Positions 5,125 to 37,930 of a stretch of DNA of 38,254 nt are shown here, one piece after another. The notes beneath the pieces were generated by a model. It had not been told where the DNA came from and ran no database searches. It was given only the letters and a program-made list of their open reading frames with translations. The translations under genes were made by a program, and so were the position numbers. Within the stretch, counting starts at the first letter, position 1. Each line of letters begins with the position of its first letter. Where the stretch lies: assembly GCA_007123105.1 (NCBI GenBank), contig SKNY01000037.1, positions 1-38,254 of the forward strand, read 5' to 3'. Source of the DNA: Salinarchaeum sp. Its GTDB lineage: Archaea; Halobacteriota; Halobacteria; Halobacteriales; SKNY01.

Positions 5125-6627
5125 TCATGATCGCCAAAAAGCGTAGGTAAACAGCACCAGGACAGGAATAATTTCGATTCGACCAAGCCACATAAGGACG
5201 ATCATCACGATTCGCGTCGACGCCGGGAACCCCAGATAATTATCCATTGGCCCGGCCATACCAAACGCGGGTCCGATGTTCAGAAAGGTCGATGCTGCCG
5301 CCCCCATGCTTTCGAATTCACTCGGGTGTATCCCCGCCCGGGCGCCGTCAATCACGATGAACATTGTGAGTGCGAAGAAAATCACGATGCTGAGGAGCAC
5401 GTAGGCGTAGATGTCCCGGACGGTCTCTTCATCCACGGGCCGCCCGGACACCCGGATCGGTCGGATTGCATCCGGGTGAATTGCCGTGAAGAGATTCCGT
5501 TTGAAGGCCTTCAACACCACGAGCCATCTGAGCGATTTGATCGAACACGTCGTGGAACCGACCATCCCCCCAATGAACATCGCGAGAAAGAGGATATTCT
5601 GCGCTGCATGCGGCCAGTCGGTGAAATCCATGCTCGCATAGCCTGTGGTCGTGAGGATCGATGCGACGTTGAACATCGCGTGTCGCACGGTAGCAGATTG
5701 ACTGAGCGTGAGCTCGGGAAAGACGTAGATGAGAATGGCTGCAGCTGCGCTGAACGAGGCAAATACGCCGAGGTAAAAGTGAAATTCATCGTTCGTCAGG
5801 AGTCGCATTGGATCGCCATGGATGGTATAATAGATCAGGACAAAACTGGTCGAACCCACCAACATGACCGGAATAAGCACCCATTGGACGATCGGGGTAA
5901 ACGCCGCGATGCTTTCGGGTTCCGGTGAAAATCCTGCGGTGGAAATCGAGGTAAAGGCGTGGGCGATCGCGTTGTACAGCGTCATATTGGGCGCCAACCC
6001 GATCAGGTGGAGGCCATAGAGCACCCCGATAACCGCGAGGGTGAGACCGAGATACAGCCCCAAAATCAACCGCGCCGTCGCCGAAATCCGCGGCGTGAGG
6101 CGATTGACGTCCTCGGTCTGGGTTTCTGTCTCCATCAACTGTGCCCCACCAACACCGAGGTCGGACAGAATGGCAGTGACGAGAATCAGAATCCCCAAGC
6201 CACCGAGCCATTGCAACATTTGCCGCCACATCATGATGGATCGGTCGATCGAAAAATCGTCGAGCACGGTTGCGCCGGTCGTCGTGAGCCCGCTCATCGA
6301 TTCGAACAAGGCGTTGACCGGGTGGGCAAGTGTCCCTTGACCCCCCACCAGGAACGGAATCGCGCCGATCCCGGCCACGAGGAACCAGACGATGGACACG
6401 GCAAGAAACGCCTCACGGGGGCCCATATCGTCGCGCACGTCGGCCACGAATCGGAGCCCGCCACCGACCCCGAGGGTGACGACGATCGTCACGACGAAGG
6501 GGACCACCGATTCGCCGAAGTAGATGGCGACGAGCAACGGAAAGGTAAGGGGAATCGACACATACAGCATGACCGTTCCGATCAGGCCGAGGCTGGCACG
6601 CCATTCGACGTTGACGTATCCTCCCAT
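5125..6627 (-). CDS. trkH: TrkH family potassium uptake protein (upstream copy)
   Basis: The 500-residue protein has the same four-repeat architecture, with filters FESMSGLTTTGATV, IAHAFTSISTAGFSPE, SILTTTGYASMDF and ASTFLNIGPAFG. The gate loop after filter three reads GGMVGSTTCSIKSLRW and so lacks the GGG run of the neighbouring copy. The two TrkH proteins are therefore diverged paralogues that may differ in gating or affinity. I start at the ATG at 6627, two bases after the trkA stop. A TTG at 6633 overlapping that stop would add two residues. The tight spacing implies co-translation with trkA. Confidence 0.93.
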   Translation of the reverse strand: MGGYVNVEWRASLGLIGTVMLYVSIPLTFPLLVAIYFGESVVPFVVTIVVTLGVGGGLRFVADVRDDMGPREAFLAVSIVWFLVAGIGAIPFLVGGQGTLAHPVNALFESMSGLTTTGATVLDDFSIDRSIMMWRQMLQWLGGLGILILVTAILSDLGVGGAQLMETETQTEDVNRLTPRISATARLILGLYLGLTLAVIGVLYGLHLIGLAPNMTLYNAIAHAFTSISTAGFSPEPESIAAFTPIVQWVLIPVMLVGSTSFVLIYYTIHGDPMRLLTNDEFHFYLGVFASFSAAAAILIYVFPELTLSQSATVRHAMFNVASILTTTGYASMDFTDWPHAAQNILFLAMFIGGMVGSTTCSIKSLRWLVVLKAFKRNLFTAIHPDAIRPIRVSGRPVDEETVRDIYAYVLLSIVIFFALTMFIVIDGARAGIHPSEFESMGAAASTFLNIGPAFGMAGPMDNYLGFPASTRIVMIVLMWLGRIEIIPVLVLFTYAFWRS

Positions 6628-6629
6628 GC

Positions 6630-7967
6630 TCAAGCCATCGCCATCAGTTGATCCACGAACGACGGTTCGACCAAGACGATGATGTGGTCGTGCGCCTCGA
6701 TGACCGTCTCACCCCGTGGGGCGATGAAGGTCCCGTCGCGGGTGATGGCACCGAAGACGACATCGGCGTCGATCGACCGGTCGATGTCGCGAATGGTCCG
6801 ACCGACCAACCTGGCACCCTCGCTCACTTCGAGTTCGAGCACTTCCGCTTGGTCGTTCTCCAAGACTGCAACGTTCACGGCGACATCCGTATGCGTAAAG
6901 CGCGTGATCTCCTCTGCCGTCACAATGCGTGGATTGATGGCAACATCGATCCCGATTTCCTCGAACAGCTGGACGTAACTCCCGTGATCGACGATCGAGA
7001 TCACGCGATCGGTGCCGATGCGTTTGGCCAACAGCGAGACGAGCATGTTCTTTTCATCCGCATCGAGCGTCGATATCAGAATATCTGCCTCGTGGACGTG
7101 TTCGCGTTCGAGAAATTCTGCGTCGGTCGGTTCGTGTTGCATAACCAGGGTCCCCGGGAGATCCTCGGCAAGCTGTCGCGCTCGCCGCTCGTCGGTTTCG
7201 AGCAACCGGGGGGAAAAGCCTCGATCCTCGAGGATTCGTGCGGTGTGGTAGCCGATCTCGCCACCTCCGACGATGACGATATCGTCTGCACTCCCCGGGG
7301 TCTTATCGGGCTCGATGTCCTGGGCGAATCCCTGCACGCTCTGTGGACTGCCGATGACCACCACGTGGTCACCACCTTTGATCCGCGTATCTCCCCGGGG
7401 GAGGATCATCTCCTCGTCACGGAACACTGCCGCGAACGTGAGCGAATCGAAGTGGTCGACATCTGCAACGACTTCACCCGTGATGGGACTTTCCGCGGAC
7501 ACGTTGAATTCGGCCATGTGCACGAGGCCCCCCGCGAACGGGTCGACATCGATGGCTGCCGGGAGGCCGATCACGTTGACGATCGTCTCCGCGGTCTGCA
7601 GATCGGAACAGACCATAAAATCGACGTCGAACGCGCGCTGGGTTCGATCCCACGTCCGTTTGAACGTGGCGTGGCGGACTCTCGCGATGGTAAATGGATC
7701 ACCGATCGTCTTGGCGGCACCACAGGCGACGAGGTTGGTTTTGTCGTCGTCCGTACTGGCGATCAGCAAGTCGGCGTCGCCGACCCCTACCTCCTCGAGA
7801 ACCTCACCGGACGTCCCGTCGCCCACGCGGGTGAGCACGTCGAGTTCGTATTTGATCTCCTCGATGCGATGGTCGTCCACATCGACTACGATCACGTCGT
7901 TCCGTTGAGAGAGACTCCGACCGATCAGCGTGCCTACTTCCCCGGCCCCGACGATGATGGCCTTCAT
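6630..7967 (-). CDS. trkA: TrkA, NAD-binding regulatory subunit of the Trk potassium transporter
   Basis: This 445-residue protein has a duplicated RCK_N-RCK_C arrangement, the standard length for TrkA. The first Rossmann fold starts with IIVGAGEVGTLIG and has an acidic residue after strand two (VVDVDDHRI). The second starts with IVIVGGGEIGYHTARIL and has LLETDERRA. TrkA-C domains follow each fold; the last ends near residue 440 with GETVIEAHDHIIVLV. TrkA forms the cytoplasmic ring that gates TrkH in response to nucleotides. No clear TATA-like box precedes the ATG at 7967, so transcription may come from the regulator promoter upstream. Confidence 0.95.
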   Translation of the reverse strand: MKAIIVGAGEVGTLIGRSLSQRNDVIVVDVDDHRIEEIKYELDVLTRVGDGTSGEVLEEVGVGDADLLIASTDDDKTNLVACGAAKTIGDPFTIARVRHATFKRTWDRTQRAFDVDFMVCSDLQTAETIVNVIGLPAAIDVDPFAGGLVHMAEFNVSAESPITGEVVADVDHFDSLTFAAVFRDEEMILPRGDTRIKGGDHVVVIGSPQSVQGFAQDIEPDKTPGSADDIVIVGGGEIGYHTARILEDRGFSPRLLETDERRARQLAEDLPGTLVMQHEPTDAEFLEREHVHEADILISTLDADEKNMLVSLLAKRIGTDRVISIVDHGSYVQLFEEIGIDVAINPRIVTAEEITRFTHTDVAVNVAVLENDQAEVLELEVSEGARLVGRTIRDIDRSIDADVVFGAITRDGTFIAPRGETVIEAHDHIIVLVEPSFVDQLMAMA

Positions 7968-32950: not shown

Positions 32951-34860
32951 TTTAAAAGCTCTGAGGAACATCTCCTCGTGTGGACGACCCGGACTACGAC
33001 CCAGAAAAGACAGAATTCATTTTTGATCCAGAAGGCGGGGGTGAGGATGGTGATGAGTCGCAGACGCCCAGGGTCGAGTCGATTGAGGATCATCTCAAAG
33101 AGCAGTATGAGTTAGTTCACGGAGATCTGGATCCAGAAGAGTCTCCCAGAGACGGCAAAGGAACGTACATCAGATCCGAAGACTTGGCGTACCGAAACCT
33201 GAAGCAGCAACTGTTTCAGAACATCATCAAGCACGACGATTTACCAAGCGCTGTCGGGGAATTGGACTTCCGATCTGGTCATGGCGGAGTCGATGAACTC
33301 CCCTCGTTCGGACAAAAATTCTCTGTGAATGATTTTGTTCGCACGCTGTTACTGGCGAACCTGCTCAAAGGCGAATCCGTGAATAGCATCGCCAAATCAC
33401 CGGGTGAGGACTCGGGGAAATATGACGAGGAGTTGAATCTCTCGTCCCCTGTGAGTCAGGTCACAGTCTCCCGGTATCGAGATGATGTTGAAACCCTCTT
33501 TCAACCGTACTTTGACCGGCTTCAGAGGGATGTGATCGATTACGTTCAAGGGACGAAGCACGAAGAATTGGTCCCACCCCCACCGTCGCTTGAGTCTGAT
33601 GGAAAAGGACCACGTGACCTTCAGCTGCTCACCCGCGATCTCCGGAAGAAGGTGCTGAAGTTTCTCCAGTTCAAGCGCAGCGAGAACATCAGCTACGAGA
33701 AGCATGAGATGTTCAAACTGCTTGATGTCGCCTGTCTTCACGGTACTACCATGGAAACCTCTGAGGAAGTTATCGAGGGGAAGCCGTGGCTCTGGGGCGA
33801 TGAGCATCCCAAACGTCGGAACTTCCTGATGCACGTCTCGAAATCCGACCGCCGGGAAATTATGTCGATGTATCTGGCGGCCAACGAATCGCTGATCGAT
33901 CTGCTTGACGAGGAATACGACTACTTCGGGGACACTGTCACGGCTGCCATCGACGTGACCCCGTGGCCGTGGTTCGGGAAGTACTCGGACGGCGAGATCC
34001 CCGAGTGGGTGTCTGGGACGAAATCCGGACGCAACTACGCCTACGCCTGGAAATACGCCACGTTGGCTCTTGTCGGGACGAACACTCCGATCACTGTGGT
34101 ATCGCTCCCGGTGAAGTCATCCTCAGAGCTTGACGGGATCGTAGATCGATTGCTCAGATTCGCCACGGCCAAGTTCGACATCGATTGGGTCTACCTGGAC
34201 AGCGAATTCTACCAGGGCGATGTAGCGAACAATATCCGGAGCGACGCGGACTTCATCATCAAGGGACAGAAGGGCTCCGACAAGCTCCAGGCGGTGAAAG
34301 AAGAAATGATCGAGAAAGACAAAGACTGAGAGATATTTCAGTGGGGAGTTAGCGATGTTCGGGACGGACGAGATTATATGTGTGTCCTGCCGGAAGAGAA
34401 AAAATCGCGTCTACAGCAAGAAGAACCCGATGACCCAACCGAAATGCTGACTCAGTTCTACACAAACCGAGATCCGCGCGAATTCGCTACTGCAGACCGG
34501 AGCGGCGCTGAAGTACTGGCTGAGAAGTTCCACAGAAGATGGGGAGTAGAGACCTCATACCGGGTCATCAAAGAACGGTTTCTTCCGCAGTCAGGATCCG
34601 GACAAATTGAACACCGGATGTTCTTGTTCGGCTACGCAGTGCTGCTGTACAATATGTGGACTGTGGCGAACGCGATCGGAGCCAGTCGAGACGACGAACA
34701 CGACCTCGGTGAGGACGGGAAATACTGGAAGGCAGTTGTGTTTCTGAGTAATGTGGTTGATGACCCAGAGTCACTCGAAATCGGGGAAGTTCCAGAAGGG
34801 GAATTATCAGAGTTCAGTGAAATGATCCGGAAAGACTTCTTCCTCAGGAATGAAGTATAA
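32951..34860 (+). pseudogene. IS4-like DDE transposase split by one in-frame TGA
   Basis: A TTTAAAAG box (32951-32958) precedes a GTG start at 32980, fitting a leaderless message. The 626-codon frame runs to 34860 but has a TGA at codon 450 (34327-34329); both sides continue in the same frame, and Trp (TGG) would fit. The DDE residues are readable: Asp325 in AIDVTPWPWFGKY, Asp407 in VYLDSEFYQGD, and Glu532 in ETSYRVIKERF, the Y-x2-R-x3-E form of IS4-type elements. The nonsense lies between the second and third catalytic residues, so neither piece can work alone. Terminal inverted repeats and target duplication could not be resolved by eye. The element sits just upstream of the nuclease gene. 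Confidence 0.85.
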
Positions 34861-34910: not shown

Positions 34911-35810
34911 TTGCCAGTTGAAAACGATTTTGGACGAATTCGTTCGATTGAGGGCTCCCAGCAAAAAGCGTTTGAGGAATTGTGTTGTCAACTAGCTAAA
35001 GATTGTGCAGAACCAAGGGAACCCCAAGCAGAATTCATTGCTAAGGGTGATCCAGATGCTGGAGTTGAGTGCCTTTGGCGTCTTTCAAATGGGGACGTGA
35101 TCGGATGGCAAGCCAAATATTTCACTTCTCCTCTAGGGGATTCACAATGGCGTCAGATTGATTCATCTGTTGAAAAAGCATTATAGAAACACCCAAATCT
35201 GTCCAAATATATCATATGTATCCCATTAGATCGTCAAGATCCACGTATTGAAGAAGAGAATTGGTTTATGGATAAATGGGAAGACCATGTGGAAGAATGG
35301 GAAAAGTGGGATTCTTCTGTATCTTTTGAGTATTGGGGAAGATTTGAACTTAATGAATTTTTAAGTCAAGATAAGCAAAGAGGCCGCCGATACTTTTGGT
35401 TTAAAAAGGATGATTTGACATTTGATAAAATTAGATCATTCGCAAATAGGCAAATAAGTAACGCCCATACCCGCTATAATCCTGATTTAGATGTATCTCT
35501 ACCCATAGAAAACCTATTTTCAGGACTTTGTCGGACAGCCAAGTTTACTGAAGATATAGACGATAGGAAAGAAAGACTTGAGCGGTTGAATCAGGAATTA
35601 AAAAACGCTGATTATATCGAGGACAACCATATCGATGAGCTATCTTCTGGACTGGAACGGACTGTTGAATTGATAGAACAACCTGAGTCCGCCGATCAGA
35701 ATTTCCCGATAGAAAGAATAGAGGAAAACATAACTATTTCGATAGATAAGATAGAGCGGTTGTTACCACAATATCGAGAGGAGAAAAACGATTATGATCC
35801 CGGTCAAGGC
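34911..35810 (+). pseudogene. N-terminal part of an Avs/STAND-like defence protein: PD-(D/E)XK nuclease
   Basis: From a TTG at 34911 the frame shows RSIEGSQQKAFEELCCQLAK, then KGDPDAGVECLWRL and GWQAKYF, then SQWRQIDSSVEKAL. D49, E53 and Q67-A68-K69 form a PD-(D/E)XK nuclease core (Mrr/Cap4-like). It is the effector found at the start of many large Avs-type ATPases of the STAND class, which sense phage proteins. A TAG at 35184-35186 replaces the Glu expected before KHPNLSKY, and the frame then continues through FMDKWEDHVEEWEKWD and GRRYFWFKKDDL. A helical linker (ISNAHTRYNPDLDVSLPIEN, then ERLERLNQELKN) follows up to the IS481-type insertion. The NTPase that should come next is absent. Confidence 0.72.
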
Positions 35811-36830
35811 CTGTCCTATACGGAAAAGATTTCGTCGGTCACTCATGGGTCCCCACCTCAGTTGCGAGAAGATCTTCAATGTCCTCCTCTGAAGATGGAC
35901 GTAATCTGTCAAAAGCTCCTTCTGGCGTCTCCAGATTGTCCCAGTCGAGACTCATGTGCGGTCGCTCCTCGTTGTAGAACGTGAGGAATCGCTCCAGTGA
36001 ACCGAGCCGCCAGCGATGCTTATCGTACGTCTGGTAGAACCGCTCGATCTTCCCGTTCGACTGCGGTCGTCCGACCTTCCCTAAGGTATGCATGATGTCG
36101 TTGTCGTGGAGATACCCCTCGAACGCGTGATCCAGATCCGGTCGTTCGTCCTGTCGAGTGTTGACGAACTCCGATCCGTGATCGGTGATGACCTCAAGGA
36201 TCGGGACCGGCCACTCCCACTGCTCACACACGCTATCTAACAGCTCGACACTGGCGGCTGCGGAACTGCTGTCGGTCTCGATCAGGTCGAAGATGTACCG
36301 GGATGCATCGTCCTCGACCGCCAGCACGTGGTCCGCGGTTGTTCCGGTACCAGTCCATGTGGACGGTGACACCGGCGTACTTCCGCTCGAAGCGGACCCA
36401 CGGCCGCCGTCTGCCCTGTTTGTTGGGATTCTCCGTCACGTGTTCGTACTCCTGGAGGATCGCATGGACGTGGTTGGTGGCGATGCTGAGGCCGTCTCGG
36501 ACGCGAAGGACGTGGCTGATGGCTTCTGCGCCCGATCCGAGGTGCTGGTACAGGTTGAGAATGCGCTCTTCGAGATCGTCCGGATGATCCGCGTACGGCT
36601 TTCGACCAGGTGTGTCAAGCTCCGGGATCTCGCCGCTGTCCCGGTACTGTTTGGCGAGTTGATGGACTCGTCGCCGACTGATGTCGAACTGCTCGGCAAC
36701 GTACCCGGTGTCCATGTCGTGATCAACAACACGCTGACAGATCCGGGTGACATCGTCCTGGTCAAGCTTCACTTCGCCGGGACGGTAGGCGGGGAGATAA
36801 TGGCGACGAAATCTTTGGCGTATTCCACAG
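35811..36830 (-). mobile_element. IS481-type insertion sequence, about 1,020 bp
   Basis: Imperfect terminal inverted repeats are seen: left from 35811 (CTGTCCTATACGGAAAAGAT...) and right, reverse-complemented from 36830 (CTGTGGAATACGCCAAAGAT...). They share 22 of the first 27 positions, including a perfect 13-base block AAAGATTTCGTCG. The flanking bases show no target-site duplication. It interrupts the nuclease-type defence gene. Confidence 0.75.
35839..36772 (-). pseudogene. IS481-family transposase with a frameshift
   Basis: Starting at a GTG (36772), the first frame encodes an N-terminal helix-turn-helix (MDTGYVAEQFDISRRRVHQL) and HVHAILQEYEHVTENPNKQG, then the first catalytic region (YAGVTVHMDWY). 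A second frame, one base out of phase at about 36340-36355, continues with DHVLAVEDDASRYIFDLI, the second Asp (VITDHGSEFVN), and the Glu region (GRPQSNGKIERFYQTYDKHR) to a stop at 35839. All three DDE residues survive, but on separate frames. IS481 transposases are normally one frame, so I read this as a disabling mutation. Programmed frameshifting is not expected in this family. Confidence 0.82.
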
Positions 36831-37930
36831 ACTGTAGGGCACACACAACTGAAATAAATGAATGGGTTGCCGACAGCGACGAATATCCAGAAATCGAATC
36901 ATTGCTCCAATTCCAACAGAACTCGAATGAATTCATCCCATTATATCAGTATCTAAGCCAAATAGTCGATATAGAACGAGAAGATAACCGTCGTAAGTTC
37001 TTTTGTCACGCATATAGATACATTATCGACCGATCTGAGAGAGATGAATTTACTTCATTTATCGAAGATAATTGGGTGACAGAAGAAAATATTGGGTTGA
37101 GCGAACTGAGAGGTACCCCATCGTTGACTGATGTATTCTTAGGCGAATATCCATGGCATCCGTCCGCCCGTTACCAGAGTCGGTCAATTGATGAAAGCCC
37201 TACAGATGCTACAAAGTTAGCAGTAGATCTCAACTGGGAATCTGAATACGATACATCAACACAAGGAGCATATAATATGCTTGTCCCCTCTTCGGAGTTT
37301 TACAATGAATTCGAACTAGAATGGAACTTTGATAACTACCATCTCATAGATAGAAATAGCGAATTAGAAATATTTGATCCAACATCACTAAATAAAGAAG
37401 ATTCATGGAGTCAAAGTACGCTACTTGCCAGCAAGAAACCACTATTATCTCAACTTGAATCCAAGCAGAAGACCATTGTGTGGTCGATCTTGGGAGAAAA
37501 AAACGTACTTGGATGGTCTCAATCAGAACATCTTGGATATGTCCGGATTCGGGGCGTATATTGGATTGAAGACGGTGAAATAACAGGTGTAGATGAAGCA
37601 GAATTTGTAGAGTCTGGAGATAGCCCGAGTGGAGAGGCTCATTCTGTTCCAGAAGACGGGTCAAATGTTAATGTGGATTTTGATGGCACAGACGATTTTG
37701 AATTGGTAGTACGCGGAACTCTAGAAGATATTGAGGGAATTGGTCCGAAAAAGGCAGAAAAGTTGCGTAAAGCAGGTTTCGAAGATCTGCCAGACGTGCA
37801 AGGAGCTGCAAGGGATGAGTTACTATCTGTCGAAGGGATTGGTCCGAAACTCGTTGACCGTCTACAGGAAACATCAACTCTATCATATCTCTTCAAAGAA
37901 GTTGATTCCGGAAAATTCCAGTCGAACTGA
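36831..37930 (+). pseudogene. C-terminal part of the Avs-like protein with tandem helix-hairpin-helix
   Basis: After the IS the plus strand resumes an open frame, about 366 codons. It begins EINEWVADSDEYPEIESLLQ, then KFFCHAYRYIIDRSERDEF and TDVFLGEYPWHPSARYQ, then LVPSSEFYNEFELEWNFD, and LLASKKPLLSQLESKQKTIV followed by WSILGEKNVLG. I recall such FLGEYPWHP and W-x-LGEK segments from C-termini of large NTPase defence proteins that share the nuclease N-terminus found upstream. The last 60 residues are a helix-hairpin-helix pair (DIEGIGPKKAEKLRKAGFED, then LSVEGIGPKLVDRLQ), a non-specific DNA-binding module. It has no start of its own and a codon usage more AT-rich than the chromosomal genes. 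Confidence 0.62.

Follow-up and report, generated by a model that had tools for sequence, protein, structure and literature searches.

Avs proteins of types 1 to 4 are equipped with nuclease effectors and recognise terminase or portal (PMC12931631). Avs2 (AVAST type 2) is represented by the NCBIfam model NF041813, the PADLOC model PDLC02164 (1504 positions) and a solved structure (PDB 9o4e). Its intact homologues are single chains of about 1,400-1,530 amino acids, which carry both ends of the protein and a Walker-A NTPase between them. Haloarchaeal examples come from YIM A00013 and Haloplanus sp. HW8-1 (1,398 amino acids) and from Haloferax massiliensis (about 1,400 amino acids), and bacterial examples from Rhodothermus marinus (1,532 amino acids), Marinimicrobium, Nitrincola and others. 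Avs2 is rare in haloarchaea; its profile is matched in 11 of 394 haloarchaeal genomes.

The window analysed here, that is, the whole stretch of 38,254 nucleotides from Salinarchaeum sp., contains the remnant of such a gene on the plus strand, in a left fragment (34911-35810) and a right fragment (36831-37930) with an IS481-type element between them. The initial annotation had listed D49, E53, QAK67-69, the segments FLGEYPWHP and W-x-LGEK (WSILGEK in the sequence), two helix-hairpin-helix (HhH) motifs and the IS481-type element, all of which are present at the positions and in the order given. Its reading of the locus as an Avs/STAND protein with a nuclease N-terminus, its centre lost to the insertion, is borne out by the Avs2 profiles and by mapping on the YIM A00013 protein. 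The further proposal of a new Avs type did not survive, as both ends match the existing Avs2 strongly and intact Avs2 occurs in haloarchaea and bacteria; searching with both ends reduces the supposed new class to a known family. We regard it as highly probable that the locus is a decayed haloarchaeal avs2, to which an HHH_5 domain had been appended and which later suffered an IS481 insertion with deletion, and a nonsense mutation. The remnant documents both Avs2 and the loss of Avs2 in haloarchaea.

The left fragment encodes a PD-(D/E)XK nuclease and the linker into the STAND region. It matches positions 3-312 of PDLC02164 (E 4.9e-78) and is 36-38% identical to intact haloarchaeal Avs2. Residues D49, G51, E53 and Q67-A68-K69 are invariant in an N-terminal alignment of eight sequences, so that the catalytic residues of the nuclease effector (D49, E53, Q67-A68-K69) are in place in a frame that is nonetheless cut by a TAG. 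This stop, which the initial annotation had missed, lies in frame within the nuclease domain at codon 92 (35184-35186), is the one TAG inside the match, and limits the left open reading frame to 91 amino acids; the left half is thus broken independently of the insertion. Weak similarity of the nuclease part to Avs4 (PDB 8dgf) was also seen, although the sequence family is Avs2 and not Avs4.

The right fragment codes up to the end of the IS and begins with the Avs2 C-terminal domain (36831-37588), which matches positions 1237-1498 of the 1504 in PDLC02164 (E 3e-37) and positions 1057-1317 of 1317 in NF041813, reaching the last position of that model. A profile of the family C-terminus matches the solved Avs2 (9o4e) over residues 1220-1483 of 1484. 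When the C-terminal part was used to scan genomes, an alignment that included bacteria proved too divergent, and a haloarchaeal alignment worked. Across 18 aligned C-termini the E-Y-x-W of FLGEYPWHP is invariant, as are the W and the G-E-K of W-x-x-x-GEK; FLGEYPWHP and W-x-LGEK are ordinary features of the Avs2 C-terminal domain. AlphaFold predicts the Avs2 domain of the right half with moderate to good quality, and the sole significant match of the model in the PDB is Avs3 in complex with the PhiV-1 terminase (8dgc), whose fold the predicted domain resembles although the sequence family differs, being Avs2. Profiles, the 9o4e match and predicted fold are therefore in agreement that the C-terminal Avs2 domain is retained.

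Beyond the natural Avs2 C-terminus the same uninterrupted frame runs into an acidic linker (37589-37717), which lies past the profile ends and has no counterpart in homologues, then into an HHH_5 domain (37718-37870; Pfam HHH_5, 1.9e-12) with two HhH motifs (IEGIGPKKAEKL and VEGIGPKLVDRL), and ends at a stop codon (37928-37930). The best NCBIfam match of the tail is haloarchaeal ribosomal protein L32e, and its nearest relatives are the N-terminal extensions of L32e, with up to 58% identity. The best matches in haloarchaeal genomes are very probably L32e extensions too, since they lie in open frames of about 235-240 amino acids. A gene in the same genome was considered as the source from which the tail was copied and rejected, the best match there being just 44% identical. 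Behind acidic linkers, HHH_5 also caps haloarchaeal ribosomal S3, topoisomerase I, methyl-accepting chemotaxis protein and a HerA-like ATPase; these extensions and those of L32e share the Pfam module and the manner of attachment with the remnant, but their hosts are unrelated to Avs2. Loci of this linker-HHH_5 kind were seen at L134:691-3543, L135:2576-4567, L138:2682-5159 and L133:873-4556 (chemotaxis transducer, S3, topoisomerase I, HerA-like ATPase). The HHH_5 tail is thus a promiscuous module that has been joined to many unrelated haloarchaeal proteins. Since it is shared by no homologue, the tail is poorly modelled by AlphaFold (pLDDT roughly 30-57), and its fold is therefore assigned from the Pfam match alone.

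The most serious alternative concerns when the tail was acquired. It might have been joined after the gene had died, the Avs2 stop codon being lost and translation reading through into a neighbouring fragment of an HhH gene; the tail is known from a dead copy alone, and HhH proteins are abundant in haloarchaea. We consider this improbable, as linker, HhH and Avs2 domain share one unbroken frame, acidic linkers of this type connect HHH_5 with other haloarchaeal proteins, and the low identity of the closest copy within the source genome speaks against a recent local duplication. It is the uninterrupted frame alone that suggests the presence of the tail in a working ancestor. A second possibility goes further, and supposes that some haloarchaeal Avs2 possess a working C-terminal (HhH)2, through which DNA is bound and the recognition of a viral packaging protein is linked to contact with DNA, the remnant being the sole and broken trace of these so far; this we think unlikely, and a new principle of sensing by DNA binding is weakly supported. 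The presence of HhH motifs does not establish a DNA-binding role, since several of the proteins that carry HHH_5 do not act on DNA. The tail would most likely have served as an accessory contact to nucleic acid or protein.

Less probable still is an Avs class of its own, whose C-terminal HhH domain would bind DNA to help sensing or to hold target DNA for the nuclease. The tail is in frame, its motif is well conserved, and it is missing from the described Avs models; a search of the open-access literature found no mention of HhH in Avs proteins. The tail described by the initial annotation is real, but by itself it defines no class. The search for intact homologues recovered nuclease end, NTPase and C-terminal end in one chain, and none with HhH: about 40 distinct Avs2 homologues lack the tail, each ending 4-64 residues past the matched domain, and intact HhH-tailed Avs2 was found neither in plasmids, haloarchaeal genomes and one genome from each of 84,980 species, nor in IMG/VR or 50,697 phage records. 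Furthermore, the rest of the remnant is ordinary Avs2, and the same widespread module sits on proteins that do not act on DNA (ribosomal S3, L32e, a chemotaxis transducer). The tail is known just from one broken Avs2 copy, and the union of Avs2 with HHH_5 is one unusual domain joint, which is not by itself evidence of a new mechanism.

The initial annotation had also supposed that the halves were once a single gene, and this is confirmed. The contrary view, that two unrelated genes flank the IS by chance, can appeal to the separation of the halves by the element and to the fact that no one frame spans both in the window, but is most improbable given that the halves lie on the same strand, in the correct order, and correspond to the two ends of one family (PDLC02164 and NF041813) and of the same intact one-chain proteins, which refute it. 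On the 1,398-residue YIM A00013 protein the left half corresponds to residues 2-309 and the right half begins at 1132, with the Walker A motif (GDAGVGKT) at residue 353, inside the missing stretch. Both halves were accordingly one gene, as the profiles and these chains show.

About 820 codons have been lost from between them, including the whole NTPase core, and their place is taken by the 1,020-bp IS481 element, to both ends of which the coding frames continue. The central STAND P-loop NTPase is present in every intact homologue checked and absent from the remnant, which we therefore regard as a degraded Avs2 pseudogene and not a working Avs2. Without its centre it cannot reach the whole-protein cut-off of NF041813 (1000 bits), a threshold also missed by intact haloarchaeal Avs2. 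The lost centre was not found elsewhere in the available draft of the source genome, which at 1.88 Mb is 67% complete and outside which an intact avs2 copy could sit. The remnant agrees with Avs2 in both ends and their order and strand, in the nuclease residues and in the EYPWHP and GEK motifs; it differs in the deleted NTPase and most of the sensor, the nonsense codon, the IS481 element inside it and the additional acidic linker and HHH_5 tail. The proteins of YIM A00013, Haloplanus sp. HW8-1 and Haloferax massiliensis, 27-39% identical to the remnant, have a similar nuclease-type N-terminus and C-terminal domain, but are intact at about 1,400 amino acids and end 6-10 residues past that domain, without HhH.

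The inserted element (35811-36830, minus strand) belongs to the IS481 family; it combines a DDE integrase-core transposase and helix-turn-helix with terminal inverted repeats of 27 nucleotides (35811-35837 and 36804-36830, 81% complementary), and shares 72.7% identity with a region of Halalkalicoccus jeotgali that is annotated as IS481 transposase. Its transposase is split over two minus-strand frames, an N-terminal frame with a helix-turn-helix (36233-36844; weak HTH_23 and HTH_28 matches), whose mechanically called ORF begins just beyond the inverted repeat, and a C-terminal frame with the integrase core (35839-36372; rve_3 1.7e-9, rve 3.6e-6), and is judged to be frameshifted because these frames overlap. 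There is no target-site duplication, the flanks GTCAAGGC on the left and ACTGTAGG on the right being different, as would be expected if adjacent DNA was deleted during the insertion or after it. Directly upstream of the remnant, at positions 32980-34860, lies another transposase, which is divided between two frames near 34330-34378 and has 78.5% identical DNA on a plasmid of Haloarcula taiwanensis. The avs2 remnant lies in a mobile-element graveyard.

The analysis shows the family, the order of the parts, the losses and the tail; the former function of the gene, the order of its decay and any role of its tail we infer as follows. The intact product would have been a one-chain STAND sensor that began with a PD-(D/E)XK nuclease, continued with a P-loop NTPase and a helical sensor at its centre, and closed with a beta-rich domain at the C-terminus. 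On the model of the Avs proteins studied so far, it would have bound a conserved viral protein (terminase, portal or another trigger), then oligomerised with ATP, upon which the nuclease would have cut viral and host DNA; the trigger itself is not transferable, because identity to the intact homologues is just 24-41%. In the source lineage an HHH_5 module was probably added after an acidic linker, as on many haloarchaeal proteins. The NTPase and most of the sensor would have gone later, when IS481 inserted and about 2.5 kb were deleted, and the nuclease was struck by a nonsense mutation. The unusual TTG start codon of the left fragment counts against this explanation, as do the low identity to intact homologues, the single broken copy in which the tail is seen and the incompleteness of the draft. 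The present copy is unable to work.

Other haloarchaeal avs2 genes vary in condition and architecture. In genome G027 (locus L015, 3146-6775, minus strand) the frame stops at 1,210 amino acids, shortly after entering the C-terminal domain, and transposase-like ORFs lie close by; in genome G158 (locus L019, about 6088-6789, minus strand) the N-terminal part alone is found, with in-frame stops; both copies look inactivated too. Two relatives (L049:2253-6314, minus strand, and L054) have an HNH-type endonuclease at the N-terminus where PD-(D/E)XK would stand, while NTPase and C-terminal parts are the same; this is an effector swap within Avs2. Finally, in genome G045 an avs2 appears to lie across the ends of the 104,033-base contig C6 (loci L017 and L018), its N-terminus at the start and its C-terminus at the end, which suggests that this contig represents a circular plasmid, about 104 kb in size and resembling NZ_CP098519 of Haloplanus.
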